From the NCBI RefSeq assembly GCF_963678185.1, contig NZ_OY782757.1, forward strand, positions 2,477,001 through 2,541,000: 64,000 nucleotides of DNA, given 5' to 3'. The position numbers were made by a program, and so were the translations under genes. This DNA is from an uncultured Tolumonas sp. (GTDB lineage Bacteria > Pseudomonadota > Gammaproteobacteria > Enterobacterales > Aeromonadaceae). Positions 23,850-44,399 of the stretch are shown here, one piece after another (the stretch's first letter is position 1; each line of letters opens with the position of its first letter). The notes beneath the pieces were generated by a model. That model did not search any database, was not told the DNA's origin, and saw only the letters and a list, made by a program, of their open reading frames with translations.

Positions 23850-23999
23850 ATGTAGTGCAATAGATTTGCTGTTTTTTTATACGGCAACGCTAATGTACTA
23901 AACTGTAAAAAGGATGTGTGATACATGTTAATTTAGTTGCTAAATCCACCGTAAGGATTAGGCTAAATCGTATAGCTTTTCACCACATGAGGATTGGCC

Positions 24000-24464
24000 A
24001 TGCAAGGAGATAAAGCAGTCATTGCGATGCTCAACAAGGTGCTGACCTGGGAGTTGAGTTCCATCAATCAATATTTCCTGCACGCGCGCTTGTTCCGCCA
24101 TTTTGGTTTTAATGCGTTGAATGAACATGCGTTCAAAAAATCGATCAAAGACATGAAACAAGCCGATGCCCTGATTGAGCGGATCTTGTTTTTAGACGGT
24201 CTACCTAATTTACAGAATCTGGAATATTTGCGCATCGGTGAGCATGCGGAAGAGATGCTGCAATGTGATTTGTCGCTGCAGCAAGATCAGTTGCTGTTAT
24301 TGCGCGAAGCGATCCAGCTTGCTGAGCAATCAGCCGATTTTGTCACCCGCGATCTGTTGGAAGATATTCTGGAATATGAAGAAGAGTATCTGGATTGGCT
24401 GGAAACACAGCAGAATCTGATCGCGACGACCGGTATTCAGAACTATCTGCAAAGCCAGATGTAA
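24000..24464 (+). CDS. bfr: Bacterioferritin, heme-binding subunit lacking ferroxidase residues
   Basis: The 154-residue four-helix protein is colinear with E. coli Bfr. It keeps the heme-ligand Met52 (in KDMKQAD) but has lost most di-iron ligands: Glu18 and Glu127 remain, while the Glu51, His54, Glu94 and His130 positions hold Asp, Gln, Gln and Tyr. It should therefore bind heme but not oxidise iron well by itself. The ATG at 24000 has AGGA upstream. Ten bases downstream begins a second subunit with the opposite pattern, as in Neisseria-type heteromeric bacterioferritins. Confidence 0.93.
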
Positions 24465-24474
24465 GGGGAGAATC

Positions 24475-24942
24475 ATGCAAGGAAAACCGATTGTCATTGC
24501 GGAATTGAATAAGCTACTGGCGGGCGAATTAACGGCCATCGATCAGTATTTTATTCATTCCCGTATGTATCAGGATTGGGGCTACAACAAATTATTTGAA
24601 CGTATCAGCCACGAGTCGGATGAAGAAAAACAACATGCGGCGTGGATCATTGAGCGCATTCTGTTTCTCGAAGGTACACCGGAGATGACGCTGCGTGAGC
24701 CGCTGAATGTGGGCAAAACCGTGCCGGATATGCTGAACAGCGATCTGCAACTGGAATACAGTGTGGTCAAAAACCTGAAGGCAGCCATTAAGCTTTGTGA
24801 AGCGGAACAGGACTATCAGACCCGTGAAATGCTGGAAAAACAGCTGGATGATACGGAAGTCGACCATGCCTACTGGCTGGAAAAACAACTGCGTTTGATC
24901 GATCAGATTGGCTTGCAGAATTATCTGCAATCGCAAATTTAG
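24475..24942 (+). CDS. bfr: Bacterioferritin, ferroxidase subunit lacking the heme ligand
   Basis: The 155-residue subunit keeps a complete ferroxidase centre: Glu18, Glu51, His54, Glu94 and the Glu-x-x-His motif at about 128-131 ([11 protein letters not shown], one residue longer than E. coli). Position 52, the heme-ligand Met of E. coli Bfr, is Lys (DEEKQHA). It therefore complements the preceding subunit, and a mixed 24-mer is likely. GGGGAG precedes the ATG. The two genes form an operon closed by a terminator. Confidence 0.93.
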
Positions 24943-25775: not shown

Positions 25776-27389
25776 CTATTTCTGGGCTAGCGACTCAATA
25801 AGATCGAGTCGTTGCCGCCATGGGTCGGGTTGTGTACGAGTCTCTGGTGCTCCGTGAGCTGAAAAAATCAGCAGCTCATCACGTTGTCTCGTGTATGGCG
25901 CCCAGTAGGGTAACCCGGGCGCATTCGGATTGCCGGTTTTGGCAAAATTGACCCAATAGGTTTGTATTTGCTCTGCCATCGCCTGATCTTCTTTACTGAC
26001 CTTATGGTCAAGCACAGACGGTAGGGTGTTAAAAACATAGGCTACTTCGCTGGCATGCATGGCGCCTGGAACGGTTGCCCACAGCGAGCTAGCTACATAC
26101 GAAAAGCGATATTCGTATACGGGTTGCCCTTGTGACGCTGCGGTTCTGGCAATGAATCTGGCGGGTTCAATCATGATCTGATCACCGGCGATTAAGTCAG
26201 CAACAGCCGGGAAAATATACATATCGTTTGGGTTGTAGAGTTGTTTGACCTGCTCGCTGTGATCGTGCCCGAGCAAGTCTAGAGCTTGTTGCATGGAGCT
26301 GATCTCCGGTGGGAACCCCACATCATTGCTGGTTGCGCCGACAATCAACGGAATATCTATACCGGCGCCAGCTTCGTAGATATACGTAGGATTGGTGGTC
26401 ACCAATTTTCCGTCGATCATGGCGCCGGAGAAGGTTTTTCCATCATCACTATCCATTTCCGTTTCCATATTCTGCTTATCTATCACATCAATGGCTGATA
26501 ACGCTCTTAATGCACTCAACGCTTTGATATCACGTCCAAAAATATGATGCATTTCTGCAAATCGTAAGCCTATTTCTTCTGCAGAGGGGTAGCCATTGTC
26601 GCTCGGTTTTTGCATCCGGATATTGCTATCTTCTTCTATCCGTCCGCCACCGGATTCAATAATAGCTTTATGAAAGAGGCCTTTTGCTAACGGTGAGGTC
26701 ATGAGGGCATGGATGGCGTAACCGCCAGCAGATTCACCAAACAAGGTGACATTATTGGGGTCGCCACTGAATGCAGAGATATTGCGCTGTATCCATTTTA
26801 AGGCGGCGATTTGATCCATGTACGCATAATTCCCTAATACACCATCGGCGTTTTCTTTACTTAATACAGGGTGAGCGAAAAATCCAAAACGGCCTACGCG
26901 ATAGTTAAAACTAACCAAAATGACACCGCGCTTAGCGAATTCAGTTCCATCATAAATATCGGCGGAAGTGTCACCATCGACAAAACCACCACCATAAATC
27001 CAAACCATGACGGGAAGTTTAGTGTGGGACGCAGTGGCGGGCCGCCAAATATTTAGTACCAAGCAATCTTCGGATAAAACTGTCTTTGGTAAGGCTTGAT
27101 CCTCCGGCGTTGGATATTGCATACAGTCGTGCCTAAACTGACTGGATTGGCGAACACCAGACCAATTTTTTACCGGCTGCGGAGCTCGCCAGCGGAAAGC
27201 GCCTATAGGTGGAGCGGCATAAGGAATACCTTTAAAGGAAATAACTCCATTGGCTTCTCTACCTTGTAACAGGCCATTTTCTATGGCAATCAACGATGTT
27301 GCTTGTACCGGTAACCCGAGTAAAAACAAAAGACACATCACCAGAGTAAAGATTTGGATATGAATTTTTTTATCCCGAATGTGTTTCAT
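25776..27389 (-). CDS. Secreted type-B carboxylesterase
   Basis: This 537-residue alpha/beta hydrolase has a signal peptide (residues 1 to about 30, ending PVQA). The nucleophile elbow GESAGGYA carries the catalytic Ser, the EDCLVLNIW signature is typical of type-B esterases, and WIYGGGFVDGD provides the oxyanion hole. A His near PGAMHASEVAYVF completes the triad. It should hydrolyse ester bonds in the periplasm or outside. It is divergent from the bgl-type PTS gene. Two LacI-type operators and a CRP-like site lie in the 241 bases between, so it may belong to the glycoside regulon, for example removing acyl groups. The substrate is unknown. Confidence 0.88.
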   Translation of the reverse strand: MKHIRDKKIHIQIFTLVMCLLFLLGLPVQATSLIAIENGLLQGREANGVISFKGIPYAAPPIGAFRWRAPQPVKNWSGVRQSSQFRHDCMQYPTPEDQALPKTVLSEDCLVLNIWRPATASHTKLPVMVWIYGGGFVDGDTSADIYDGTEFAKRGVILVSFNYRVGRFGFFAHPVLSKENADGVLGNYAYMDQIAALKWIQRNISAFSGDPNNVTLFGESAGGYAIHALMTSPLAKGLFHKAIIESGGGRIEEDSNIRMQKPSDNGYPSAEEIGLRFAEMHHIFGRDIKALSALRALSAIDVIDKQNMETEMDSDDGKTFSGAMIDGKLVTTNPTYIYEAGAGIDIPLIVGATSNDVGFPPEISSMQQALDLLGHDHSEQVKQLYNPNDMYIFPAVADLIAGDQIMIEPARFIARTAASQGQPVYEYRFSYVASSLWATVPGAMHASEVAYVFNTLPSVLDHKVSKEDQAMAEQIQTYWVNFAKTGNPNAPGLPYWAPYTRQRDELLIFSAHGAPETRTQPDPWRQRLDLIESLAQK

Positions 27390-27528: not shown

Positions 27529-27542
27529 TGCAACCGGTTGCA
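27529..27542. promoter_or_regulatory. LacI-type operator (CCGG type), EIIBC-proximal
   Basis: TGCAACCGGTTGCA is a perfect 14-base palindrome. The same 14-mer recurs at 30665-30678, in front of the cellobiose-type PTS operon. Confidence 0.8.
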
Positions 27543-27630: not shown

Positions 27631-29025
27631 ATGAGTTATTCAGGTTTGGCAAAAACAATTCTGCAGCTGGTTGGCGGCGCAGAAAATGTGGATGCATTGG
27701 TGCATTGCGCGACTCGTTTACGTTTTACGCTGCACGACAATGGCAAAGCAAAAAAAGAAGAATTAAAAAACTTAGATGGAATTCTAAGTGCGGTAGAAAG
27801 TGGTGGCCAGTTTCAGGTGATCGTCGGCAGCCACGTGTCGCATGTTTACAAAGAGTTAATGAGTCTACTCAGTGGCGGCATGGTATCCAGTGCTGAACGC
27901 ACCGAGAGCAAACCGAAAGGCAATATTGGCAGTCGCATTTTTGAAGTGGTGTCGGGCAGCTTCTCGCCGTTGATTGGTGCCATGGCTGGTTCTGGCATGA
28001 TCAAAGCCCTGCTGGCGGTGTTAACCATGATGGGTTGGATGGATGCCACCAGCAGCACCTATCTGGTGTTGGCAGCAGCAGCGAACTCGGTGTTCTACTT
28101 CCTGCCAGTGCTGCTCGGTATCTCGGCAGCCATCAAAATGGGTGCCAATGGGTATATCGGTGGTGCAATTGGTGCGGCACTGCTAGAACCGAATTTTACC
28201 GGCCTGATTGGTTCACACACCGCGACCTTTTTCGGTATTCCGGTAGTAGCGATCAACTACGCCTCTACCGTATTCCCAGTGTTTATTGCGGTGGCTATTC
28301 TGGCGGTGTTGGAAAAATTCCTGAAGCGTGTCTGCCCGCATAACATCCAGATGTTTATGGTGCCGATGCTGTGTCTGCTGGTGATTGTACCAATGACCGT
28401 CCTGGCATTTGGCCCGTTCGGGGTTTATCTGGGTAATCTGATTGCCGACGGTATCAACTGGCTGAGTGCGCACAGCGGCATCCTGACCGGTGCAGTGATT
28501 GGCGGCTCGATGATGTTTCTGGTGGTGCTGGGTCTGCATTGGGGCATCGTGCCGATCATCATTGCTAACTTAGGTGCCGGTGGCGATCCGATATCTGGAA
28601 TGTGGGCGCCCGCGACCTTCGCTCAGATGGGGGTGGCATTGGCCATCTTCCTGCGCAGTAAAGACGTTAATGTGAAAGCACTGGCGGGCCCGGCAACAGT
28701 AACTGGCTTACTGGCTGGCGTCACCGAACCAATCATCTACGGCCTGATCATGCGTTTCCGCCGCACCATTCCGATTGTGGTGCTCGCGGGCGCAGTCGGT
28801 GGTGCATTAAACGGTGCTTTCCAAGCGAAACAGACCGCATTTGCCTTCCATAGCTTGCTGTCCATCCCAGTTTTCACACCAGTCCTGCAATATGCTATTG
28901 GAATTGGAACCGGTTTCGGTCTGGCGTTATTACTGACCCTGATGTTCGGTTTTGAGAATAAAACCGTCAACGCAGCGAGCCAAAGAAAACCAATGGCCAC
29001 GACGACTGCTGTTACAACTAGCTGA
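27631..29025 (+). CDS. PTS beta-glucoside-type EIIBC component (AscF/BglF-like, no EIIA domain)
   Basis: The protein imports a beta-glucoside and phosphorylates it at C6. Of 464 residues, the N-terminal EIIB domain carries the phospho-Cys26 in HCATRLRF. A linker leads to a Glc-superfamily EIIC with about ten membrane segments (SGSFSPLIGAMAGSGMIKA, GLHWGIVPII, GVTEPIIYGL). No EIIA domain follows; BglF has one, AscF does not, so EIIA-Glc or another EIIA is needed. The GH1 gene follows 60 bases downstream. Operators and a CRP-like site upstream indicate LacI-family repression and catabolite control. Confidence 0.92.
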   Translation: MSYSGLAKTILQLVGGAENVDALVHCATRLRFTLHDNGKAKKEELKNLDGILSAVESGGQFQVIVGSHVSHVYKELMSLLSGGMVSSAERTESKPKGNIGSRIFEVVSGSFSPLIGAMAGSGMIKALLAVLTMMGWMDATSSTYLVLAAAANSVFYFLPVLLGISAAIKMGANGYIGGAIGAALLEPNFTGLIGSHTATFFGIPVVAINYASTVFPVFIAVAILAVLEKFLKRVCPHNIQMFMVPMLCLLVIVPMTVLAFGPFGVYLGNLIADGINWLSAHSGILTGAVIGGSMMFLVVLGLHWGIVPIIIANLGAGGDPISGMWAPATFAQMGVALAIFLRSKDVNVKALAGPATVTGLLAGVTEPIIYGLIMRFRRTIPIVVLAGAVGGALNGAFQAKQTAFAFHSLLSIPVFTPVLQYAIGIGTGFGLALLLTLMFGFENKTVNAASQRKPMATTTAVTTS

Positions 29026-30664: not shown

Positions 30665-30678
30665 TGCAACCGGTTGCA
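30665..30678. promoter_or_regulatory. LacI-type operator (CCGG type)
   Basis: TGCAACCGGTTGCA is identical to the site at 27529-27542. It lies 71 bases before the EIIB start, so it probably overlaps the promoter of the cellobiose-type operon. Confidence 0.8.
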
Positions 30679-30749: not shown

Positions 30750-31055
30750 ATGAAAAAGATTTTCTTATGCTGCGCCGCTGGTATGTCAACCAGTATGGTC
30801 GTCAACAAAATGAAGCAGTCTGCTGCTCAGAAAGGCATCGAAGCCGAAATCATTGCGGTCGCCATGGAAGAGTTCGATAGCACGTTACCAAAGTTCGACT
30901 GTTGTCTGCTCGGGCCGCAAATTAAATACAAATTTGAAGAGTTCAAAAAGAAAGCCGATGCGGCAGGCAAACCAATTGCTGTCATCAACAGCATGGATTA
31001 TGGCATGATGCGTGGCGATAAGATCCTCGCTGATGCATTGGCCATGATGCAATAA
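30750..31055 (+). CDS. PTS EIIB component, lactose/cellobiose family
   Basis: This 101-residue free-standing EIIB carries the phosphocysteine at Cys8 in FLCCAAGMSTSMV, followed by LLGPQIKYKFEE. It passes phosphate from the EIIA at 32419 to the sugar bound by the EIIC at 31078. It is the first gene of a three-gene PTS operon with two operators upstream. ChbB/CelA is the closest well-known relative; the exact sugar (cellobiose, chitobiose or another beta-diglycoside) cannot be read from sequence. Confidence 0.92.
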   Translation: MKKIFLCCAAGMSTSMVVNKMKQSAAQKGIEAEIIAVAMEEFDSTLPKFDCCLLGPQIKYKFEEFKKKADAAGKPIAVINSMDYGMMRGDKILADALAMMQ

Positions 31056-34451: not shown

Positions 34452-34488
34452 GCCGGATTGAGCCGCCCCGTGTTCAATCCGGCTTTTT
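34452..34488 (+). terminator. Terminator after the second GH1 gene
   Basis: A perfect 10-bp stem (GCCGGATTGA / TCAATCCGGC) is followed by TTTTT, just before the convergent MalM-like gene. Confidence 0.88.
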
Positions 34489-34496
34489 ATTGACGT

Positions 34497-35432
34497 CTAT
34501 TTTTGCTGTTTTACGGCGTCGATGAATGTCTGCTCAACATCAGTGATACCCAGTCTTTTCCCTTCAGATACAAGCTGCATGGCTTGCTCTAAATGACCAT
34601 CAACAACGGCTTGTTGAATCGCCAATCGATAATATCGGTGCGTTTGCTCGCTGGTTTTTATCTGTTCTTCATGAGGCGTCGACATTTGTACTTCTGTTTT
34701 TGGATTTGCGGACGGTTCATTTATTGCAGATTGATTGCTAACTGCGCCGATAAGTGGCGTCTGCGTATTTAATAGGTTTTTTAATTGATTTGGTTGTGTA
34801 TCAATTTGCATATCAATTAAACCCCAAGGTGAAAATGGAATTTCCAATTCAGAATAAGATAACCCCTTCACATCCATTGCTTTTTCTTTAAGTTGTTCTG
34901 GGTGGGGAATAGCAATCGTTTTATCTAATTGGCGCATATCCGCATAAATGATGAGATAGTTTTCCTCTGGAAGTAGAGTAATTTGGGTCTTTAAACTGGG
35001 GTCGGACAGTAATTTTGCATCAGTAACTGCAAAGTCTGAAAAAGGGATTGTTCTAGTGGGTTGGAAATGAGCATCTAATAATTGTAACTGTGCTGGAAAT
35101 ACGGTTTTGCCGATTAACGATTGCACCGTTAACGCGCTGCTCCGCTGATGATCCAGAATTTTGGCTGCGTAGAAATAACTTTTTTCCCCTGCAAACATCA
35201 TCGCAGGGGAGTGGCTGTTGATAATAACCTTTCCCCGATTCAACGGAATATAGGTGATATCTTTGAAAGCCTGGCAGCATAGTGTTGCTTGCGTTAATGA
35301 GCGTGTCGCCTGTGGTCTCGAATCATTCATTAGCAAATCATCCTCTGCTGGTGATCCTGACATAGCACAGCCATGTAAGACAGTGGAGAGAGATAGTACC
35401 GCTAGGCTCTGGATCCATACTGAATTCATCAT
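34497..35432 (-). CDS. MalM-like outer-envelope lipoprotein
   Basis: The 311-residue protein has a lipoprotein signal (lipobox VLHGC at about residues 18-22). The following domain resembles the maltose-operon periplasmic protein MalM (CCQAFKDITYIPL, FAGEKSYFYAAKIL, QLQLLDAHFQPTRTIPFSDF). The C-terminal third is polar and linker-like, ending in a helical segment. MalM function is unknown, but it is co-expressed with LamB. Here the gene is divergent from a LamB-type porin, each side having its own operator, so pairing is kept without any maltose transporter. Composition is more AT-rich than the PTS genes before it. Confidence 0.75.
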   Translation of the reverse strand: MMNSVWIQSLAVLSLSTVLHGCAMSGSPAEDDLLMNDSRPQATRSLTQATLCCQAFKDITYIPLNRGKVIINSHSPAMMFAGEKSYFYAAKILDHQRSSALTVQSLIGKTVFPAQLQLLDAHFQPTRTIPFSDFAVTDAKLLSDPSLKTQITLLPEENYLIIYADMRQLDKTIAIPHPEQLKEKAMDVKGLSYSELEIPFSPWGLIDMQIDTQPNQLKNLLNTQTPLIGAVSNQSAINEPSANPKTEVQMSTPHEEQIKTSEQTHRYYRLAIQQAVVDGHLEQAMQLVSEGKRLGITDVEQTFIDAVKQQK

Positions 35433-35526
35433 TACTCCTGAATTGAATGTTTATTGCCGTACATGTCGTGCATCAATGCAATATAGGAAACCTACTTTTA
35501 TTCGTTGGTTCTGTATTTATCACATT

Positions 35527-35540
35527 TGAAACCGATTGCG
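35527..35540. promoter_or_regulatory. LacI-type operator (CGAT type), MalM side
   Basis: TGAAACCGATTGCG lies 95 bases upstream of the MalM-like gene. It recurs exactly at 38677-38690. The gap 35433-35789 holds this site, the next operator and no credible gene; a 78-codon ORF there lacks any support. Confidence 0.7.
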
Positions 35541-35724
35541 TTTTTTGGTGTGTTTTCGTCATGCTTACCTAATTTAGGTGGCATTTATGGTAAAGCAATC
35601 ACTAATGAACAACAAATTATCTATTTTGTTGCAGTTGGTAGTGTGATTTTAGTCGTGTTTTTGGTGTTAAATTTTAATGTTAAAAATATTATTGGTGATC
35701 AATATCATTCTTTTTGCATGATAA

Positions 35725-35738
35725 TGCAATCGGTTTCA
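35725..35738. promoter_or_regulatory. LacI-type operator (ATCG type), porin side
   Basis: TGCAATCGGTTTCA is the inverted form of TGAAACCGATTGCA. It lies 52 bases before the porin start, followed by a TGTGA half-site at 35744-35748. Its centre is 198 bases from the MalM-side operator, so looping between the two is possible. Confidence 0.72.
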
Positions 35739-35789
35739 TGATTTGTGATATTAATATACATGAATTAACACCTCAGCAAGGATGAAGTC

Positions 35790-37100
35790 ATGAAAGTACT
35801 TAATAAAACATTTTTAGCAGCAGCAATCATTAGTTCAATGGGAGGAATATCTAATTCATATGCATTAGATTTTCATGGTTATGGTCGTGGCGGTTTTTCC
35901 GGTTCAACTAATGGCGACCAACAAGTATGGGCTACAGGAAAATTAGGTCGACTAGGGAATGAGGCTGATGGCGATTTAATTCTTCTGCTGTCACAAGATA
36001 TATATAAAGACGATCAAGGTAAGTCATTCAGTGCTGTTACTAAGTTTGAAAATGTTTCAGCGATGAAGAAAGAAAGTGAAATGGTTGATATCGGTAGTAA
36101 TAACTTTGGCATGACAGATTTTTATATTACTGCTAAAGGAATGTTGCCATTTGATCCAGGTGCTACAATCTGGGCAGGCAAACGGGGTTTCAATTTAAGA
36201 GAAATCCAAATGTTAGATTATAAAATATTAAGAACAACAGGTAATGGGGCTGGTATAGAAAATGTTACTGCAGGTAAAGGGATGTTTTCTGCAGGAATCA
36301 TAAGACAAGATGCTGATATTACTGATGCTGATTCAACAGATACAACTACAATTAGCTCTACAAATGATTTTAATGTCAATATGTTTGATATCAGATATGC
36401 TCAACTGCCTATTACAAATAATTCAAAACTAGAATTAGTTGCTAACTATTTCCTTGCCAACAAGACCGATAGTCAAAGTGCATTAGAGGACAGTAATGAT
36501 ATCTATACTGCTGATAATTCAGCTCGTTTGACTGCCATTATCGATACGAAGTTAGATAAAGGTACTAACCAGTTTTCTATTCAGGCTGCGAATAAAAACT
36601 TAGCAGGTAACTATGCTAATGTAAGAGGTCGTCCATCTTTATATCTTACCAATACAGATAACCATGATGCATTTGGATGGCGCGTGACAAATGCGGGCGA
36701 ATTCGATTTGTCTAATAATGTGATTTTTGAACATGCAATTGTTTATGCACATGCAAAAGATACGGCTGCAGCTGGAGATAAATATTATGATTCATCCAAT
36801 TCATTTAATGTCGTAGCAAGACCGGCTTATGTATGGAACACGAATAACAAAACAGCATTTGAAATGGGTTGGTTTAAACAAACCAATAAATTAGATGATG
36901 TTTCATATGATGAGTCAGGGAAGAAATTGACTTTGGCCCATATTATTTCACCGGGCAGAAGTATGATGAATGTTCGTCCTGAAATTAGATTCTATAGCAG
37001 TTATATCAAAGTAGATAAAAATGAAATCGACAGTTTTTCATTTAGTGACTCTAAAGATCATCAGCTAAGTTTTGGTATTCAAGCAGAGGCTTGGTGGTAA
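35790..37100 (+). CDS. LamB-type carbohydrate porin
   Basis: The 436-residue outer-membrane protein has a signal peptide (residues 1-25, ending SYA) and the LamB-family mature start LDFHGYGRGGFSG. Alternating aromatic and polar beta strands run throughout, with GKRGFNLREIQMLDY near residues 130-145, and the final strand ends in an aromatic residue (AEAWW). LamB, ScrY and BglH porins form sugar-specific trimers. AAGGATG precedes the ATG. Strongly AT-rich compared with the flanking PTS genes, it is followed by a terminator. Sulfated or beta-linked oligosaccharide is the likely cargo from context. Confidence 0.88.
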   Translation: MKVLNKTFLAAAIISSMGGISNSYALDFHGYGRGGFSGSTNGDQQVWATGKLGRLGNEADGDLILLLSQDIYKDDQGKSFSAVTKFENVSAMKKESEMVDIGSNNFGMTDFYITAKGMLPFDPGATIWAGKRGFNLREIQMLDYKILRTTGNGAGIENVTAGKGMFSAGIIRQDADITDADSTDTTTISSTNDFNVNMFDIRYAQLPITNNSKLELVANYFLANKTDSQSALEDSNDIYTADNSARLTAIIDTKLDKGTNQFSIQAANKNLAGNYANVRGRPSLYLTNTDNHDAFGWRVTNAGEFDLSNNVIFEHAIVYAHAKDTAAAGDKYYDSSNSFNVVARPAYVWNTNNKTAFEMGWFKQTNKLDDVSYDESGKKLTLAHIISPGRSMMNVRPEIRFYSSYIKVDKNEIDSFSFSDSKDHQLSFGIQAEAWW

Positions 37101-37119
37101 AATGTAATAGATAATGAGA

Positions 37120-37146
37120 GAGGCCACACTTGTGGCCTCTTTTTTA
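37120..37146 (+). terminator. Terminator of the porin gene
   Basis: A perfect 10-bp stem (AGAGGCCACA / TGTGGCCTCT) with a 2-base spacer is followed by a T run. Confidence 0.9.
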
Positions 37147-37481
37147 TTTTAAGTTGTATGTGGTTAAAATTAACGTGTAATTTATATAATTAAATTATAT
37201 GGCTGGTGTATTTTCTGTCACTCCCCATTTCTCTCTCAATGTACCAGTCTCTGTCATTATCAAAAACAGTTTTCCTTGCGTATAAATAGTTTTTAATCTG
37301 CGTGATTAGGGTGTTATTGATAGTGCATTTTGGTAATTATAAATATTTTTATTTTTAGGTTGACTTTGAATGGTTTCTTAAAAATCATATAAATGATTAT
37401 ATCTCGAATTTGGGATGACTTTATGTCGATATTGAGCAGGTGAATGTGTTATAAGAAGGGGCTGCCGTTAACGGGTGTTAA
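37147..37481. other. AT-rich intergenic stretch without a gene
   Basis: These bases between the porin terminator and the EIIC terminator contain no ORF of note, no operator-like palindrome and no RNA-like structure that I can see. They are markedly AT-rich. Confidence 0.5.
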
Positions 37482-37520
37482 AAAAATAGTCACCAGTTGT
37501 AATAACCAGTGACTATTTTT
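37482..37520. terminator. Bidirectional-looking terminator of the orphan EIIC gene
   Basis: A 12-bp arm AAAAATAGTCAC pairs with GTGACTATTTTT. The arms themselves give the A and T runs, so it can work on the minus strand just after the EIIC stop. Confidence 0.8.
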
Positions 37521-37523
37521 GAA

Positions 37524-38627
37524 TTATTGAAAAACTTTCTTTTTTAAGATGATGCACATTAAGAATGCAGCAAAAAAACTAATGGATATGCCGATTAAAT
37601 ACATGCTTATTGGTGTGAATAGTTGCAAAGAAAGAACACTATGAAACCCAACATCCATCAAACGTATGTTGTGAAATCCATTAAATGCACCACCAATAGA
37701 GCCAGATAGCATGGCAATTGGGATTGTTTTCTTGAATTTAACCAATATCCCATAAGTTATTGGTTCTGTAATCCCTGCAAAAAGCCCTGAAAATAAAGAT
37801 AAAAATGAGATAGTACGATAGTTTTTATTTATAACAAGACAGGCTAATGCAACCCCCATTAGAGCAAAAGTAGAACAGGCCCATAAAGGTGCGATATTGT
37901 CACCATCATTACTGATGTTGGCTAAGATAAGTGGCAGCAATCCCCAATGTAGACCGAAAAAGACTATAAAGATCATGAATGCACCAATAATAGCACCTGA
38001 TATTGTCGGGTATATGTTTGATGCAATTTGAATGATATGCGCTATTTTGGATCCAAATGTAATGCCCAAGTCACCAAATGATATAATGATTACTGGAGCA
38101 ATTATTGCTAATGAGACGACACTAACTAAAGCGTCATCTGTGTTTTTATTTATCTTAGTGAGAAAGTTGTTTATTAAAAATAACAAGGCTAAAGCTGTAA
38201 ATATAGGAAATACTGATCCACCAAAATCAGCGGGGATAACGGGGATCGAAAAAAAAGTTTGCTCTGGTTGGTTTAATAATGCTGTGAAATTAGGCTCAAG
38301 AAGAATTGCGCCTAAGGTCGCACCTAAATAAGAATTTAATTTTAAGTGTTTTGCAATGCTGAACCCTAGCATTACTGGCATAAAATAAAAAATACTATTT
38401 GATATTGCAGCCAATATTTGATAGCTGCTTACATTTTCTTCTGGGATAAGAATTTTACTAGCAATTAAAATGGCTAATATCCCTTTCATAAGCCCTGATG
38501 CTGCTAAGATGCTTATTATTGGTTTAAACGAACTATTAATAGTATGGAAAATAAAATCTATAGCTCCAGCTGATTTTTTAGGATCTATGATTTCGATGTT
38601 TTTTTGAAGTTCAACGCTGTTATTCAT
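37524..38627 (-). CDS. Orphan PTS EIIC protein, glucose/beta-glucoside superfamily, without EIIB
   Basis: The 367-residue membrane protein has about ten hydrophobic segments and matches the EIIC half of the protein at 27631 (FKPIISILAASGLMKGILA, FFGLHWGLLPLILANI, AGITEPITYGILVKF). Only about 25 residues precede the EIIC domain, so the EIIB domain with its phosphocysteine is absent. GGATG precedes the ATG and the reading frame is intact, so this is not simple decay. It would need a partner EIIB, perhaps from the EIIBC protein, or could act as a facilitator or sensor. Very AT-rich and divergent from a LacI gene. Confidence 0.85.
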   Translation of the reverse strand: MNNSVELQKNIEIIDPKKSAGAIDFIFHTINSSFKPIISILAASGLMKGILAILIASKILIPEENVSSYQILAAISNSIFYFMPVMLGFSIAKHLKLNSYLGATLGAILLEPNFTALLNQPEQTFFSIPVIPADFGGSVFPIFTALALLFLINNFLTKINKNTDDALVSVVSLAIIAPVIIISFGDLGITFGSKIAHIIQIASNIYPTISGAIIGAFMIFIVFFGLHWGLLPLILANISNDGDNIAPLWACSTFALMGVALACLVINKNYRTISFLSLFSGLFAGITEPITYGILVKFKKTIPIAMLSGSIGGAFNGFHNIRLMDVGFHSVLSLQLFTPISMYLIGISISFFAAFLMCIILKKKVFQ

Positions 38628-38676
38628 TAGTTAAAGCATCCTTTTTCACACATGTAAGCGATAGATAATATTAGCA

Positions 38677-38690
38677 TGAAACCGATTGCG
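38677..38690. promoter_or_regulatory. LacI-type operator (CGAT type), EIIC side
   Basis: TGAAACCGATTGCG is identical to 35527-35540. It lies 50 bases upstream of the orphan EIIC start. Confidence 0.72.
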
Positions 38691-38794
38691 CAAATCTGTC
38701 TATTTTTACTACTGAGAATTGGATCACATTACGACGATATACTTCATTTGTAGGCATATGTTGTTGAATTATAAGGTTTTATTTATTTAATTAA

Positions 38795-38808
38795 TGCAAC
38801 CGATTGCA
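38795..38808. promoter_or_regulatory. LacI-type operator (CGAT type), regulator side
   Basis: TGCAACCGATTGCA, upstream of the LacI-1 gene, is centred 118 bases from the EIIC-side operator. It suggests autoregulation. A TATATT -10-like element follows at 38817-38822. Confidence 0.72.
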
Positions 38809-38870
38809 TAATCGTGTATATTATTGCCTGCATGAGAACTGTGTTCGTTCTATGTTATCGTCATTTCTTT

Positions 38871-38898
38871 CCCCCTCTGTCTACCAGAGGGGCTTTTT
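38871..38898 (+). terminator. Intrinsic terminator inside the LacI-1 leader
   Basis: An 8-bp GC-rich stem (CCCCTCTG / CAGAGGGG) with loop TCTAC is followed by CTTTTT. It points along the plus strand, 78 bases before the LacI-1 start codon and downstream of the operator. A transcript starting near the operator would end here as a short RNA of about 70 bases unless there is readthrough or a second promoter. Confidence 0.7.
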
Positions 38899-38975
38899 CC
38901 CTTCCCGCTTAGATTTTTATCGTGATTTTGCATAGAATGAGTATTCTTGTTGTCTGATTTTTAAAAGGATTACTC

Positions 38976-39989
38976 ATGGCCACAATGTCTGATGTAGCCC
39001 GTTTGGCTGGGGTAGCTTCCTCTACGGTTTCCCGTGTTTTAACAGGCAAGGCAACAATTTCAGATGAAACACAAAAAAGAGTGTTTGCTGCAATTGAACA
39101 GTTACAATACAGACCAGATGTTGTTGCTCGTTCATTGGTTACCCAAAAAAGCAATACTGTTGGTCTTGTGATCCCGCGTAATGTGGGGAGTGTGCCTAGC
39201 TTCAATTTAATGATTGAATCTTGCCAAGCTGCATTAGAATCTTACAACATTGAGTTATTGATTAGCCAAGTGCAAGACAAAGAAAACTCACACCTTGATA
39301 CGATCAATCATTTAGTTGATCGAGGGTGCGATGGCATTCTGTTTTTTCATAATTTCTTCTTCGAAAAAGATAATGTCAGTCTTCAAAATTTGAGTGATCT
39401 GGTCGCGTTACTGCCCGTCCCTTTAGTTGTGATGAATGCCGTTTTGCCTGATCATCCATACCACTGCGTTTGGATTGACCATAAAGCAGCGGCTGGTCTT
39501 GCGGTTAATTATGCGATATCTCAAGGTCACATGAATATTGCGTATATTTCTGGTCCATTATGGCAGGAAACGGCTCGCTGGCGAATTCAAGGTTATCAAG
39601 CTGCGCTGGAAAAACACCAAATCTCTTTTGATCCTTTATTGGTCATTGAAAGCGATCGGAGTTTCAATGGTGGTTATCAGGCATTTTCAAAATTAATGGA
39701 AAGAAATAACGCGTTTACTGCGGTTTGTTGTTTCAATGATGTAACAGCGATTGGCGCTGTTAAAGCATTCAAAGATCGTTATTCATCTAATTATGCAATG
39801 CCATTATTTGTTGGTATCGATAATGATCCATTATTGAATTATTTTTCACCGAAAATTAGTTCTGTTGAAATCAGAATGGATTTATTAGCTTCATATGCTG
39901 TTCAGTTATTGATGACGCACATTAAGCAAGAGGCTGTTGATTTTATTCCCAGTCGTAGTGTTATGGGCGAATTATTTGTGCGGAAATAA
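38976..39989 (+). CDS. LacI-family transcriptional regulator (LacI-1) of the sulfatase module
   Basis: The 337-residue repressor has an N-terminal helix-turn-helix (MATMSDVARLAGVASSTVSR, then VL) and hinge helix (YRPDVVARSL). A periplasmic-binding-protein-like effector domain follows, with CFNDVTAIGAVKAF near the C-terminus. Its recognition helix begins ASST, against SKST in its paralogue at 43371. It is AT-rich, divergent from the orphan EIIC and convergent with the sulfatase. The CGAT/ATCG operators around it are its likely targets. The effector is probably a phosphorylated or desulfated sugar. Confidence 0.92.
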   Translation: MATMSDVARLAGVASSTVSRVLTGKATISDETQKRVFAAIEQLQYRPDVVARSLVTQKSNTVGLVIPRNVGSVPSFNLMIESCQAALESYNIELLISQVQDKENSHLDTINHLVDRGCDGILFFHNFFFEKDNVSLQNLSDLVALLPVPLVVMNAVLPDHPYHCVWIDHKAAAGLAVNYAISQGHMNIAYISGPLWQETARWRIQGYQAALEKHQISFDPLLVIESDRSFNGGYQAFSKLMERNNAFTAVCCFNDVTAIGAVKAFKDRYSSNYAMPLFVGIDNDPLLNYFSPKISSVEIRMDLLASYAVQLLMTHIKQEAVDFIPSRSVMGELFVRK

Positions 39990-40013
39990 AAAGGGATGCT
40001 CACGCATCCCTTT
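39990..40013. terminator. Bidirectional terminator between LacI-1 and sulfatase
   Basis: A perfect 10-bp stem (AAAGGGATGC / GCATCCCTTT) with loop TCAC lies directly between two convergent stop codons. Confidence 0.85.
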
Positions 40014-40017
40014 GATA

Positions 40018-41703
40018 TTACTTAGCTTCTGGATGTGCTTTGATAAACTCAGTAACCGCGTTATCACGAGATTGCATTGCTTTAGTGACTTTCTCTACAA
40101 ATTCTTTTTTGTTGACAGAGTCAGGGAACAAATCATGATATTTATCTGCTGGGCTATAGCCACGTTTCCATTCTGATGGGATATCAGCCATTGGTGGAGC
40201 ATCTGCGCGACGGAAAACCTGGCCACGATGGTTTCTTTCGTTATATGGAATAACGTTATCACCATCTTTGTTTTTCAACTCTTTATACAATTGCTTGCGT
40301 AATTCAATTTTCTTCGCAACAACAGTTGGATCGCTGGAATCAATCAAGTTATGCATTTCTTTAGGGTCGTCTTTCAGATTATATAGCTCTTCTTTATCCC
40401 ACAAACCGTAAGGTTGGATGTATTTCCAATCACTGGTGCGTAATGCAAAGATAGTTGGTGTATAAGGGAAGTCATATTCCCAGAAATATTCATAAGCAAA
40501 GAAATCTTTACGATTTTCTTTACCTTTTCCTTGGTCTAGGCCATAGAAGCTTTGTCCATCATACCAGTCTGGGCGTTTGATTCCTGCAATGTCCAGAATA
40601 GTTGGTGCAATATCGATATTGGCAACAACATCCGTCACTTCTTTGCCTTTAGAGAAACCTGGGCCTTCAGCAATTAACGGCACACGCATTGATTCTTCAT
40701 AAGCATTACGTTTGTCAATTAAACCGTGTTCACCAAACATAAAGCCATTGTCACCCATTAACATCACAACGGTGTTCTTATCTAAGTTATGATCTTTCAG
40801 GTATTGTCTGATTTCACCTACACTGTCATCGACGCTACGCAATGTTTCATAATAATCACGTTGGAATGTTTGAATATCGAGGTTTTTGTTGTAAGGGAAA
40901 TCGATGCCATGCCATGAATTACGCTGGTTTTTAACCCACAGCGGTTTTCCTTGATAATTTTTATCTGTATTAGCTTCTGATTTCGGCACTGGGAAATGCA
41001 CATTTTTCATTGAGCCTTTATATTTAGGTGATGCTTCAAAATCAGCATGAACCCCTTTATGGCCTAAATACATGAAGAACGGTTTTGTTTTATCGATGCC
41101 ATCTAACCATTCAACAGCATAATTGGTCAATTCAGTGGTGATATAGCCTTTTTGAGGAACTAGTTTTCCATCCACATTTAGATTTGATGGGTTACCCATC
41201 ATATCGATTGGCCAATAATCGCCTTGACCTAATAAACCAACCCAGTGATCAAAACCAGCAAAGCCCGCTTTAGCTGTTTTGTCTGCGCCACCAAAATGCC
41301 ATTTACCAAAGAAGCCTGTTTGATATCCAGCTTTTTTCAGCTCTTCAGGAAAGAATTTCAGATTATTAACTACAGAGTTTGGATTGTTATCTGATATGTG
41401 GTGATTGTGGGCATATAGCCCAGTCAGAATACTGGCTCGACTTGGAGATGATAACGATGTAGTAACGAACGCATTTTTGTAATGGACACCATTTTTAGCG
41501 ATAGCATCCATATTCGGTGTTTTGATTAATGGATTCATAAAACCCATTGCATCGTAACGTTGGTCATCGACCAAAATATAAATAATGTTTTTGTGACCAT
41601 CCGTTGTCGTTTGGTTTGATTCACTAGCAATTGCTGCTGTTGTGTTCAGAATTTGAGCACAACTTAAGGCGATTAGACTTAGTTTTAGACGTTTTCCTAC
41701 CAT
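40018..41703 (-). CDS. Periplasmic sulfatase, Ser-type
   Basis: The enzyme hydrolyses sulfate esters. The 561-residue protein has a signal peptide (about residues 1-27), a metal-binding ILVDDQRYDAMG segment and the sulfatase signature SSPSRASILTG, in which Ser85 takes the place of the usual Cys. Such Ser-type enzymes need an anaerobic radical-SAM maturase to form formylglycine, and that gene is adjacent. Further family motifs are GKWHFGG and DNGFMFGEHGLIDKR. The start at 41703 has AAAGGAGA upstream. By context it desulfates a sugar entering through the LamB-type porin. The exact sulfated glycan is not deducible. Confidence 0.93.
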   Translation of the reverse strand: MVGKRLKLSLIALSCAQILNTTAAIASESNQTTTDGHKNIIYILVDDQRYDAMGFMNPLIKTPNMDAIAKNGVHYKNAFVTTSLSSPSRASILTGLYAHNHHISDNNPNSVVNNLKFFPEELKKAGYQTGFFGKWHFGGADKTAKAGFAGFDHWVGLLGQGDYWPIDMMGNPSNLNVDGKLVPQKGYITTELTNYAVEWLDGIDKTKPFFMYLGHKGVHADFEASPKYKGSMKNVHFPVPKSEANTDKNYQGKPLWVKNQRNSWHGIDFPYNKNLDIQTFQRDYYETLRSVDDSVGEIRQYLKDHNLDKNTVVMLMGDNGFMFGEHGLIDKRNAYEESMRVPLIAEGPGFSKGKEVTDVVANIDIAPTILDIAGIKRPDWYDGQSFYGLDQGKGKENRKDFFAYEYFWEYDFPYTPTIFALRTSDWKYIQPYGLWDKEELYNLKDDPKEMHNLIDSSDPTVVAKKIELRKQLYKELKNKDGDNVIPYNERNHRGQVFRRADAPPMADIPSEWKRGYSPADKYHDLFPDSVNKKEFVEKVTKAMQSRDNAVTEFIKAHPEAK

Positions 41704-41795
41704 CTGTTTTCTCCTTTGAGTAAAGATATAGCTATCTTCGGCGTTCAAAATCTATCGCCTTTACAGACATTGACTCAAATTCCCTGATCATTTGG

Positions 41796-41811
41796 TGTGA
41801 TATTTATCACA
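41796..41811. promoter_or_regulatory. Perfect CRP-type site between sulfatase and maturase
   Basis: TGTGATATTTATCACA is a perfect palindrome with exact TGTGA-N6-TCACA half-sites and AT-rich flanks. It lies 93 bases upstream of the sulfatase and about 180 from the maturase, so catabolite control of both is likely. Confidence 0.8.
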
Positions 41812-41901
41812 ATAAAAATGGATATATTGCATTTGTTGCATGATTTATTCATTTTTTAGTGTGTGATTGCATGTGATCTGGATCTATTTTTTGCCAATCA
41901 G

Positions 41902-41915
41902 TGCAATCGGTTTCT
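41902..41915. promoter_or_regulatory. LacI-type operator (ATCG type) before the maturase
   Basis: TGCAATCGGTTTCT matches the porin-side operator TGCAATCGGTTTCA at 13 of 14 positions. It lies 74 bases before the maturase start in the shared divergent region. Confidence 0.7.
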
Positions 41916-41988
41916 GTTTCTTTTTTTATTCCTAGATAAAATGGTAGGCGTATCTTGAGGGCTTTTAAGAGAGAGGCATTTGGTAACG

Positions 41989-43230
41989 ATGAATAGCATT
42001 ACAAATTTTCAACTTATGGCAAAGCCATCCGGAGCTAAATGCAATATCGATTGTTCTTATTGTTTTTATCTGGAAAAAGAAAAACTTTATCCCAATAGAA
42101 AAGAAAATTGGAAGATGAGCCAAGATACATTAGAGGCTTATATTAAGAAAAACATCGAGGCTCAATCTGCTGATGTTGTTGATTTTTTGTGGCAGGGCGG
42201 TGAGCCAACTTTACTTGGCTTGGCTTTCTTCGAGGAAGCAATTCTGTTACAACAAAAATATAAAAAAAATAAAAAGATTAATAACTTCTTTCAAACTAAT
42301 GGAATAAATATCGATCAAAAATGGGTTGATTTTTTCAAGAAAAATAATTTTTTAGTTGGCATTTCCATTGATGGAAATAAAGAACACAATGATACGTATA
42401 GATTAAGTCGCAGTGGAAAAACTACATTTGACAAAGTGGTGGCAGCCATAGAGTTGCTAAAAACAAATCAAGTTGAATTTAATACGCTTACTGTAGTTAA
42501 TAATGCAAACGTTGAAGAGCCTCTGGGTGTCTATCAATTTCTTAAAGAATTAGGTAGCCAATATATTCAATTTACACCATTGGTCGAACGCATTGCACAA
42601 AAACCAGATGCTTCAGGGCTTACATTGATTTCTCCTGATTTTAATGGTGTTAGTCAGGTTGCTGAATGGTCTGTTTCTGCAGAGAAATATGGGTTATTTC
42701 TGAATAAAATATTTGATTATTGGGCTCAGCATGATATTGGGTCTGTTTATGTTGTAAATTTTGAACAAACCATGATGAAAATGGTTGGCGAAAACAGTTC
42801 TTGTATTATCAGTGAAGAATGCGGTGGGAATTTAATTATAGAGTCGAATGGTGATATCTACTCATGTGATCATTTTGTTTATCCCGAAAATAGAATAGGC
42901 AATATCCATGATGAACAATCAATTTTCAATATAGTGAATTCAGAAAAAAATAAAGCATTCGGTAAAAACAAATCTCAAAATATGAGTGTTGATTGTAATG
43001 GCTGTTCAGTAAAACCGCTTTGTAATGGTGGCTGCCCCAAACATCGCTTTCTTATTTCAACCGATGGTAAACCTAACAAAAACTATTTTTGTTCTGCCTA
43101 TAAAACACATTTGCATCATTCTGTGCCAGCCATGGCATTTATTATTGATGCACTCAATAAAGGCGTGTCGTTAACGGTATTACGCAAAAAATTGCAAGAG
43201 GGTTTACAAAAACTCAATGCAGAAAATTAA
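41989..43230 (+). CDS. Anaerobic sulfatase-maturating enzyme (radical SAM, SPASM)
   Basis: The enzyme converts the active-site Ser or Cys of sulfatases to formylglycine. The 413 residues include the radical-SAM cluster motif Cys18-x3-Cys22-x2-Cys25 (KCNIDCSYCFYL) and WQGGEPTLLGL for SAM binding. A C-terminal SPASM domain is rich in cysteines (EECGG, IYSCDHF, DCNGCSVKPLCNGGCPKH, FCSAY) and binds two further clusters. ATG 41989 is preferred over TTG 41980 because it gives the usual N-terminus (FQLMAKPSGAKCN), though GAGAGG is 12 bases upstream. It is divergent from the Ser-type sulfatase it should mature. Confidence 0.93.
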   Translation: MNSITNFQLMAKPSGAKCNIDCSYCFYLEKEKLYPNRKENWKMSQDTLEAYIKKNIEAQSADVVDFLWQGGEPTLLGLAFFEEAILLQQKYKKNKKINNFFQTNGINIDQKWVDFFKKNNFLVGISIDGNKEHNDTYRLSRSGKTTFDKVVAAIELLKTNQVEFNTLTVVNNANVEEPLGVYQFLKELGSQYIQFTPLVERIAQKPDASGLTLISPDFNGVSQVAEWSVSAEKYGLFLNKIFDYWAQHDIGSVYVVNFEQTMMKMVGENSSCIISEECGGNLIIESNGDIYSCDHFVYPENRIGNIHDEQSIFNIVNSEKNKAFGKNKSQNMSVDCNGCSVKPLCNGGCPKHRFLISTDGKPNKNYFCSAYKTHLHHSVPAMAFIIDALNKGVSLTVLRKKLQEGLQKLNAEN

Positions 43231-43291
43231 CACATATGCAACATTTGCGATTGGCATTTATAAAGAAGGATTGATCCTAATGTTTTTACTA

Positions 43292-43305
43292 TGAAATCGC
43301 TTGCT
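43292..43305. promoter_or_regulatory. Possible LacI-type operator before LacI-2
   Basis: TGAAATCGCTTGCT fits the general LacI-family pattern TGnAAnCGnTTnCA at all but the last fixed position. It lies 65 bases before the LacI-2 start and could give autoregulation. It is the weakest site of the set. Confidence 0.4.
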
Positions 43306-43370
43306 AAATAGTCTCTACCCTCTTTACATTACAGTTTTCTGTTTTTAGAGCCTTTGGAGCAACAGAGTTT

Positions 43371-44399
43371 ATGGCCACAATGCTGGATGTTTCGCGCAAA
43401 GCGGGCGTTTCAAAATCAACGGTTTCGCGAGTGTTAAACGGAACGGCGAAGATCTCTGAAGCAACGAAGCAAGCGGTATTTCAGGCAATAGAAGAACTGA
43501 ATTACCGGCCAAACGTGCTGGCGCAATCGCTGTCTAAACAGGAAACTAATACCATTGGCTTGGTCATTCCTCGAGGTTCAAATACCTCTCAATATCTCGC
43601 ATCGTTGATTGAAATTTGCCAAGAATTGGCTGATAAAGCGGGTAAGTTTTTAATGATCACGCAGGTTAATGATCAACCTGATGGTGGCATCAAGGCTATT
43701 CGTTCATTAGTTGATCGTCGTTGTGATGCTGTGTTGTATTACAACAACTCATTTTTTGATCATTACAATATTCGAGGTGATGAGCTCAGTAACCTGATTG
43801 ACGAATTGCCAGTACCACTGGTTGTCTTGAACTGTCATTTACCTCGTCATCCGCAAAATTGTGTGTGGTTTGATCATTCTCAAGGCGCTCGTTTACCGGT
43901 GGAACATTTACTAGCGCAAGGGCATAAACGTATTGCTTATATTGCAGGACCACTAAATCAGCGTACTGCTCAGTTACGTTTACAAGGCTATCAAGATGCA
44001 TTAAAGGCTGCAGGTATTGCCTTTGACCCATTATTGCTGACAGAGGGTGACCGCTATTATCATGGCGGTTATAGCGCTTGTAACCAGTTGCTACAGCGTA
44101 AAACAGAGTTCACTGCTCTCTGTTGTTTTAATGATCTCACGGCAATTGGCGCACTGAAAGCGTTGGAAGAGCAAGGTATAGCGGTGCCAGAACAGGTATC
44201 ACTATTTGGGTTTGATAATGAGGCAGTGCTGGACTATCTTTCACCATCGCTCTCTTCGGTACAGCTACCAGCTCATGCATTTGTGACACATGCGGTGACG
44301 TTATTGCTAGATAAATTGACTAATACGGAAACGCCAGTGCCAGATGACAGTATTTTTATCGGTGATTTGGTTTTACGTCAGTCAGTTAGAAAACTTTAA
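43371..44399 (+). CDS. LacI-family transcriptional regulator (LacI-2), AscG-like
   Basis: The 342-residue repressor has the helix-turn-helix MATMLDVSRKAGVSKSTVSR and hinge helix YRPNVLAQSL, close to E. coli AscG. It is clearly paralogous to LacI-1 along its whole length (for example CCFNDLTAIGALKAL and GYQDALKAAGIAFDPLLL). AscG binds a TGAAACCGGTTTCA-type operator, so LacI-2 is the likely repressor of the CCGG-type sites at 27.4 and 30.6 kb. Its composition is less AT-rich than that of the preceding module. A long hairpin follows the gene. Confidence 0.92.
   Translation: MATMLDVSRKAGVSKSTVSRVLNGTAKISEATKQAVFQAIEELNYRPNVLAQSLSKQETNTIGLVIPRGSNTSQYLASLIEICQELADKAGKFLMITQVNDQPDGGIKAIRSLVDRRCDAVLYYNNSFFDHYNIRGDELSNLIDELPVPLVVLNCHLPRHPQNCVWFDHSQGARLPVEHLLAQGHKRIAYIAGPLNQRTAQLRLQGYQDALKAAGIAFDPLLLTEGDRYYHGGYSACNQLLQRKTEFTALCCFNDLTAIGALKALEEQGIAVPEQVSLFGFDNEAVLDYLSPSLSSVQLPAHAFVTHAVTLLLDKLTNTETPVPDDSIFIGDLVLRQSVRKL

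Follow-up and report, generated by a model that had tools for sequence, protein, structure and literature searches.

The use of sulfated sugars as food is best documented for Bacteroides-type systems built with SusC/D. The bgl operon of E. coli (bglG-bglF-bglB-bglH-yieL) encodes BglF, BglB and a LamB-family porin; its annotated stretch includes neither a sulfatase nor a maturase. In S. pneumoniae, an island is described with a ROK regulator, a cellobiose-type phosphotransferase system (PTS), a sulfatase and a sulfatase-modifying factor (PMC3283741); loss of the regulator reportedly raised the PTS and sulfatase transcripts, no sulfatase activity was detected and the substrate was unknown (PMC3283741). 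No description of a sulfatase paired with a beta-glucoside PTS in Gram-negatives was found in the open-licence literature, which is weak evidence of absence. The present analysis concerns a 64,000-nucleotide stretch of DNA from an uncultured Tolumonas sp. (hereafter the window), in which six genes form a module that apparently pairs a PTS with a periplasmic sulfatase. They encode a Ser-type sulfatase, its anaerobic maturase (anSME), a LamB-type porin, a MalM-like protein, the EIIC domain of a PTS enzyme II (EII) and a LacI-family regulator, LacI1.

We propose that this module, carried by an insert, is one half of a split regulon for a sulfated beta-glucoside, with the outer-membrane, periplasmic and regulatory functions, the other half being a remote operon with an EIIBC and a hydrolase of glycoside hydrolase family 1 (GH1). 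We give this reading a probability of roughly 70%. In this model, the sulfated beta-glucoside would enter via the LamB-type porin, and the sulfatase, activated by anSME, would strip the sulfate in the periplasm. The freed glucoside would then be imported and phosphorylated by an EII of the beta-glucoside type, and cleaved in the cytosol by the GH1 6-phospho-beta-glucosidase. The remote operon would supply the EIIB and the hydrolase missing from the insert, and LacI1 would repress both the module and, in trans, the remote operon. The binding by LacI1, the cell locations, the transport and the substrate are predictions of the model.

The insert and its six genes

The gene families, the insert edges, the operator positions and the co-occurrence in relatives were computed. 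Scans with Pfam and curated profiles found the expected families at the expected coordinates for all six genes (Table 1), in agreement with the gene set given by a preliminary description of the locus. The anSME passed its curated cut-off. The MalM-like product was rejected as MalM proper (PRK10564, 82.9 bits against a cut-off of 295) and the porin as maltoporin proper (PRK09360, 277 bits against 394); with both scores under the curated cut-offs, membership of the maltose regulon was rejected as well. The same profiles detected no SusC or SusD among the ten window proteins scanned.

The GC content per kilobase was 0.33–0.41 over 35–44 kb and mostly 0.45–0.58 in the rest of the window. At third codon positions, it was 0.24–0.38 in the six module genes against 0.45–0.63 in ten other window genes, lacI2 (0.36) being the exception among the latter. 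In seven of nine fetched congener loci, similarity (blastn) ended at position 34,486–34,491 and restarted at 43,366–43,370; the left edge was located just beyond the GH1 terminator and the right edge corresponded to the lacI2 start. The remaining two loci (L124 and L128) were without the GH1 gene and without the insert. The module had no counterpart in 10 congeners, some of them drafts 63–87% complete, and LacI1 had no match above 49% identity in this set. Of the 75 family genomes searched, only the window's own contained the sulfatase (E up to 1e-100). The AT-rich segment appears, from these comparisons, to be an acquired insert. Both the sharp shift in base composition and the acquisition suggested by the preliminary description were borne out, the latter by the clean edges and the absence from the congeners. 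Three congeners possessed malM-like (33–35%) and lamB-like (50–60%) genes on the opposite side of lacI2, so that the porin and the MalM of the module may have a local history.

Operators and the remote EIIBC-GH1 operon

The exact 12-mer GMAACCGATTGC occurred five times in the insert, with approximately 0.002 copies expected in 8.87 kb, and eight times in the 3.95 Mb genome, with approximately 0.9 expected. Of the three copies outside the insert, two preceded the remote EIIBC-GH1 operon and one, at 331554 inside an open reading frame and with a 1-mismatch site nearby, was taken as chance. The five module operators (CCGA-type) fell in three divergent regions: malM/lamB, EIIC/lacI1 and sulfatase/anSME. 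The near-identical 14-base operators of the preliminary description were thus real, but they occupied three divergent regions and not four, the site before lacI2 (43292) having three mismatches to the CCGA-type operator. At three mismatches, the 14-mer gave 45 window sites compared to a shuffle mean of 29, hardly above chance, and only exact or 1-mismatch sites were therefore used. A promoter scan was not used, since its 19 promoter-like sites were fewer than those in shuffles (34.6).

The two remote sites, at positions 1328778 and 1328804, faced each other 26 bp apart directly upstream of the remote EIIBC gene; no further exact operator pair was present in the genome outside the module. The remote EIIBC contains the EIIB domain which the module EIIC is without. 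The operon had no counterpart in the 10 congeners, the best EIIBC match showing 40% identity. The four sulfatase-linked GH1 of Enterobacter, two Pectobacterium and Atlantibacter were 64–69% identical to the remote GH1, compared to 66% for E. coli BglB and 58% for the GH1 next door; a GH1 tree joined the remote enzyme to the BglB type with a support of 89/90, under the usual mark. For the remote EIIBC, the identity was 57–62% with four linked EIIs, 46% with the P. carotovorum linked EII, 55% with BglF and 40% with the next-door EIIBC. The 6-phospho-beta-glucosidase matched by operator would be, in the predicted regulon, the remote GH1 and not the next-door enzymes, which the preliminary description had taken as pathway partners. 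These have a different operator.

The operator of the beta-glucoside operons next to the insert, TGCAACCGGTTGCA (CCGG-type), is a perfect palindrome with two copies in the genome, both at these operons. No exact CCGA site was present in 15 congener loci examined. Judged from the congener sequences, the CCGG-type operator of the adjacent operons is ancestral, and LacI2 is ancestral in the genus and not a member of the module. We infer that LacI1 reads the CCGA-type site and LacI2 the CCGG-type site. The next-door operons were rejected as members of the same regulon for their different operator, of the CCGG type, which is kept in module-less congeners. Their proximity to the module leaves room for another version of the pathway, in which the module EIIC would be served by the next-door EIIBC (27631–29025) and the next-door GH1, the remote operon being separate. 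The module EIIC was closest to this EIIBC (41% identity to its EIIC part and a common gap pattern, compared to 28% to the remote EIIBC), and a carboxylesterase gene is found both beside this EIIBC and, in relatives, beside BglB or an unlinked GH1. This version is nevertheless unlikely in view of the operator distribution and of the two CCGA sites at the remote operon, whose nearest relatives adjoin a sulfatase in another genus (L194, see below).

The module EIIC has the features of a glucose-superfamily EIIC: in addition to its PF02378 score, it keeps H227 and E288 of the GITEP motif, both invariant in 11 aligned EIIs. A profile scan and the alignment of these 11 EIIs detected no EIIB or EIIA domain in the module, which does not encode a complete BglF-type EII, EIIB being neither fused nor adjacent within it. 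Because there is no EIIB, the module EIIC cannot phosphorylate alone, and PTS import by the module's own EIIC was not supported in the form first described. Among 394 genomes of the order, no EIIB-less relative was found at 1e-55; the best plasmid matches were IIABC proteins, at approximately 40%. The EIIB-less EIIC is possibly a mixed-dimer partner, a facilitator or a product of decay. A second EIIB-less EIIC-like frame, with the conserved Glu changed (GITGP), was observed next to a full EIIBC at L194 14430-15662. Such a paralogue, together with the truncated EII of L007 and the module EIIC itself, could be expected if the module were a decayed or transitional island, its EIIC having lost the EIIB and its genes, of mixed origin, forming no single working pathway in the strain. 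As none of the six frames is broken, the catalytic residues are conserved and the operators are regular, we regard decay as very improbable.

Table 1. Positions of the features discussed. Coordinates refer to the window unless a genome or locus handle is given.
Feature	Position	Strand	Remarks
Insert relative to congeners, approximately 8.9 kb	34492..43365		blastn edges, uncertain by approximately 5 bases
MalM-like predicted lipoprotein	34497..35432	-	PF07148 55 bits (cut-off 26); lipobox-like LHGC near N-terminus
LamB-type outer-membrane porin	35790..37100	+	PF02264 279 bits
PTS EIIC, beta-glucoside type, EIIC domain only	37524..38627	-	PF02378 62.6 bits
LacI1, LacI-family regulator	38976..39989	+	PF00356 65 bits, PF13377
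Ser-type S1 sulfatase, predicted signal peptide	40018..41703	-	PF00884 194 bits, PF16347 118 bits
anSME, anaerobic sulfatase maturase (radical SAM/SPASM)	41980..43230	+	TIGR03942 479 bits, cut-off 349
CCGA-type operator, malM side of malM/lamB region	35527..35540	+	0 mismatches
CCGA-type operator, lamB side of malM/lamB region	35725..35738	-	0 mismatches
CCGA-type operator, EIIC side of EIIC/lacI1 region	38677..38690	+	0 mismatches
CCGA-type operator, lacI1 side of EIIC/lacI1 region	38795..38808	+	0 mismatches
CCGA-type operator, sulfatase/anSME region	41902..41915	-	12-mer exact, 14-mer 1 mismatch
Remote EIIBC (461 aa) then GH1	G000:C1:1328931-1331759		approximately 1.18 Mb from module
LacI2, second LacI-family regulator, outside module	43371..44399	+	orthologues 79–93% in nine congener loci
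CCGG-type palindrome, carboxylesterase/EIIBC gap, outside module	27529..27542		kept in five congener EIIBC loci
CCGG-type palindrome before PTS EIIB gene at 30750, outside module	30665..30678		kept in two congener loci
Type-B carboxylesterase	25776-27389		divergent from next-door EIIBC across CCGG operator
Small exported-looking proteins	L195 11196-11726, L198 10826-11380, L199 11215-11757, L013 11716-12189, L014 11776-12252		

Sulfatase-linked genes in relatives

One genome per species was searched, and 80 loci were kept from 315 relatives. The window and nine loci (L006–L014, from Enterobacter, Intestinirhabdus, two Pectobacterium, Vibrio ruber, Atlantibacter, Hafnia and two Methylobacillus) formed a sulfatase clade of 10 with a support of 100/100 in a tree of 42 rows. 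In these nine loci, anSME was linked to the sulfatase in eight, a PTS EII within 10 kb in six (one truncated, L007), a LamB/BglH porin in four and GH1 in four. The linked EII, GH1 and porin corresponded to the BglF, BglB and BglH types, respectively, and BglG was often present as well. None of the 71 loci outside the clade, many of them on short contigs, showed EII, anSME, LamB or GH1. The sulfatase itself is rare: at E up to 1e-170, it was found in 1 of 394 genomes of the order and, for the Enterobacter family, in 4 of 343; at 1e-190, the counts were 7 of 329 for the V. ruber family and 2 of 295 for a sample of the P. fontis family that has genomes in common with the Enterobacter family sample.

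Six further sulfatase genomes of the V. ruber family (Vibrionaceae) were held out, the expectation being recorded before their surroundings were fetched. All six possessed a linked anSME and four an EII, whereas GH1 and the LamB porin were each linked in one. Three of these loci (L195–L197) closely resemble V. ruber and are not independent. In L194, genes for an EIIBC (78% to the remote EIIBC), a GH1 (84% to the remote GH1), a sulfatase and anSME were consecutive on one strand, with a LamB porin approximately 1 kb beyond anSME plus a GH106 rhamnosidase-family gene. Its EIIBC and GH1 were the closest relatives found of the remote pair; the remote genes indicated by the operator thus adjoin a sulfatase in another genus. 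A lack of co-occurrence in other genomes, which the preliminary description had named as a refutation of its reading, was not what we observed, the EII accompanying the sulfatase in the clade and held-out loci counted above; the full six-gene set, with MalM and the EIIB-less EIIC, was not seen in any other genome compared. Similarly, the logic of porin, periplasmic desulfation, PTS and 6-phospho-beta-glucosidase recurred in relatives, but with a remote partner hydrolase and an EIIC deprived of EIIB in the present genome. The initial observation was largely right, the split regulon being matched elsewhere by contiguous or differently wired versions. Between the sulfatase and maturase genes of five loci, small exported-looking proteins of approximately 157–184 aa were observed, with no Pfam match in those scanned (L195, L198 and L013).

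No LacI-type operator was common to the V. ruber loci. A common 19-base sequence was located there before the EIIBC gene and before an unlinked GH1 gene (79% to the remote GH1), and proved to be part of a BglG-type ribonucleic antiterminator. The site search used what we take to be the BglG antiterminator consensus, and recovered both E. coli bgl sites as a control. Over 11 stretches covering 228 kb (L006–L014, L178 and L179; background of 20 random sets), 18 sites were found with at most one mismatch (random mean 0.0) and 25 with at most three (random mean 0.65). They were present upstream of anSME in five loci (two at one mismatch, three at three) and upstream of the sulfatase in two related loci (three mismatches). 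The other positions were before bglG, EII genes, the Hafnia BglH-sulfatase run and the unlinked V. ruber GH1, the last two being among the sites with at most one mismatch. In V. ruber, sites also preceded three more sulfatases and a chemoreceptor, and one unknown gene had a site as well; two of the 25 sites were unrelated (L008 14636 and L011 236). The 71 outside loci contained two sites in 1.15 Mb. At up to three mismatches, none was found in the window or the remote locus, and with the E. coli control positive, a BglG-antiterminated bgl operon was rejected for the module. Among the held-out loci, three of six had a site with at most one mismatch, L199 had a 2-mismatch site before the sulfatase and L198 had none. 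Rfam at the gathering threshold, applied to seven stretches, found two tRNAs only and no antiterminator family. In relatives, the beta-glucoside PTS itself apparently controls the maturase and, often, the sulfatase, and the LacI operator appears to play this part here. The pairing would therefore be under two controls, LacI operators in this genome and BglG-type antitermination in relatives.

The V. ruber chemoreceptor gene (L009 7347-9248; dCache, MCP) lies between the EIIBC and sulfatase genes and is preceded, at 149 bp, by a perfect antiterminator site, which suggests that the substrate attracts the cell. Further S1 sulfatase genes were present in Vibrio at L009 13800-21189 and L195 13059-20002, several with upstream antiterminator sites, suggesting a larger BglG-type sulfatase regulon.

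Several observations weigh against the split regulon. The predicted link between LacI1 and the remote operon comes from one genome, and the operator at one mismatch discriminated poorly genome-wide (74 sites compared to 44 for the reversed control). LacI2 could also bind the CCGA sites, which are one base off its own CCGG site. The EIIB-less EIIC has no explanation in the model, and its greater identity to the next-door EIIBC than to the remote one runs counter to it. In the clade, the Hafnia locus (L014) had no EII near the sulfatase and the two Methylobacillus loci had no EII, GH1 or porin; in the held-out set, the single linked GH1 and the absence of EII, GH1 and porin near the sulfatases of L198 and L199 point in the same direction. 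The focal V. ruber sulfatase had no antiterminator site on its own strand.

Candidate substrate and known systems

For the sulfatase, the ATG at 41703 was preferred over the listed TTG at 41748 as the start, given a ribosome-binding site and a signal-peptide-like N-terminus. Numbered from this ATG, the motif S85-S-P-S-R was of the Ser type, as first described. In an alignment of 75 rows (the window and 74 of the 80 loci, six being dropped for want of a clean frame), only the window and V. ruber (L009) sulfatases were Ser-type; the other 73 were Cys-type. The AlphaFold model was of moderate quality (pLDDT 77.9, pTM 0.79) and poor at 322–333, which corresponds to the active-site loop. The seven best Foldseek matches were 6-O-sulfatases with approximately 28–30% identity, acting on glucosamine-6-sulfate, 6-sulfated N-acetylglucosamine (6S-GlcNAc) or L-galactose-6-sulfate in porphyran; ranks 8 and 9 were an Akkermansia sulfatase, specificity not stated. 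A D-K-R motif, aligned with that of BT4656, was invariant in 75/75 rows, and is presumably the O4-contacting Asp/Arg pair of SulfAtlas S1_11. Two His shared by 5g2v, 7p24 and 7snj, candidates for the O3-contacting His of this 6-O-sulfatase family, aligned with His in 13/75 and 0/75 rows, and S1_11 membership is not claimed.

A GH3 gene was located near the sulfatase in 16 of the 71 loci outside the clade. The Pfam context of marine relatives included GH3, GH10, GH5 and GH88 neighbors, but indicated no single substrate. Relatives of the type-B carboxylesterase at 25776-27389 were located in P. fontis, close to bgl genes (35%), and in V. ruber, in the vicinity of the GH1 (49%). The GH3 neighbors, a Sphingobium locus described below and the carboxylesterase neighbors together favor a decorated beta-glucoside as the substrate. 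It is conceivable that the sulfatase would instead serve the supply of sulfate or act on aryl sulfates, its link to beta-glucoside genes being incidental: many S1 sulfatases have a broad arylsulfatase activity, the beta-glucoside is a predicted substrate, and in the two Methylobacillus relatives the sulfatase has no PTS genes nearby. Such scavenging of sulfur or sulfate esters is quite improbable when set against the recurrent linkage to beta-glucoside PTS, GH1 and porin genes, the BglG-type antiterminator sites upstream of maturase or sulfatase genes, the GH3 neighbors and the nearest structures, which are carbohydrate sulfatases.

EIIs of the beta-glucoside class phosphorylate the O6 hydroxyl. 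A sulfate at O6 would block this hydroxyl, which makes an O6-sulfated beta-glucoside an attractive substrate for the proposed split regulon. The closest structures being mostly C6-O-sulfatases, the modelled fold suggests that the sulfate may leave the hydroxyl which is then phosphorylated by the PTS. A pathway dedicated to 6-O-sulfated beta-glucosides, in which the sulfatase and then the PTS would swap sulfate for phosphate at C6, is a tentative and rather doubtful extension of the model. If true, it would open the catabolism of glucose-6-sulfate-type compounds to study at the level of genes. According to a 2025 marine study, glucose 6-sulfate compounds were putatively detected in ocean dissolved organic matter, their synthesis and catabolism are not known, and there is no annotated pathway for compounds of this type (PMC12911362). 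Glucosinolates are another candidate; some E. coli degrade them via 6-phospho-beta-glucosidases, the role of sulfatases being reported as unclear (PMC6767122).

Elsewhere in the window, two adjoining open frames at 23994-24942 resembled a bacterioferritin-type pair, judged by eye only.

If the split regulon is real, it would add a route to sulfated beta-glucosides for Enterobacterales, Vibrio and kin, with a directly testable substrate, and comparable sets in other bacteria make the substrate of the module searchable. The genes of the E. coli bgl operon are the same that adjoin the sulfatase in relatives of the module; here, LacI-type operators would replace the BglG control and the components lie at two separate sites. 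The Bacteroides loci for sulfated glycans (with SusC/D and the S1_11 6-O-sulfatases BT4656 and BT3177) are alike in the periplasmic exo-sulfatase, the anSME maturation and the closest fold (30% identity). They differ in that the module genes include no SusC/D, PTS phosphorylation would take the place of periplasmic hydrolysis, and the recognition-triad His is apparently absent. The S. pneumoniae island likewise brings together PTS, sulfatase, maturase and one regulator, but in a Gram-positive, with no porin and with another PTS and regulator. A plasmid of Sphingobium sp. RAC03 carries genes for a LacI regulator, a TonB receptor, two GH3, an FGE-family protein, a sulfatase (52% identity) and a major facilitator superfamily transporter. 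Like the module, this locus combines an outer-membrane importer, a maturase-type gene, an inner-membrane transporter, beta-glycosidase-type genes and LacI, whereas the part differs at each step and there is no PTS. The system proposed here is a new combination of known parts, a bgl-type PTS and a sulfatase, and not a new class of system.

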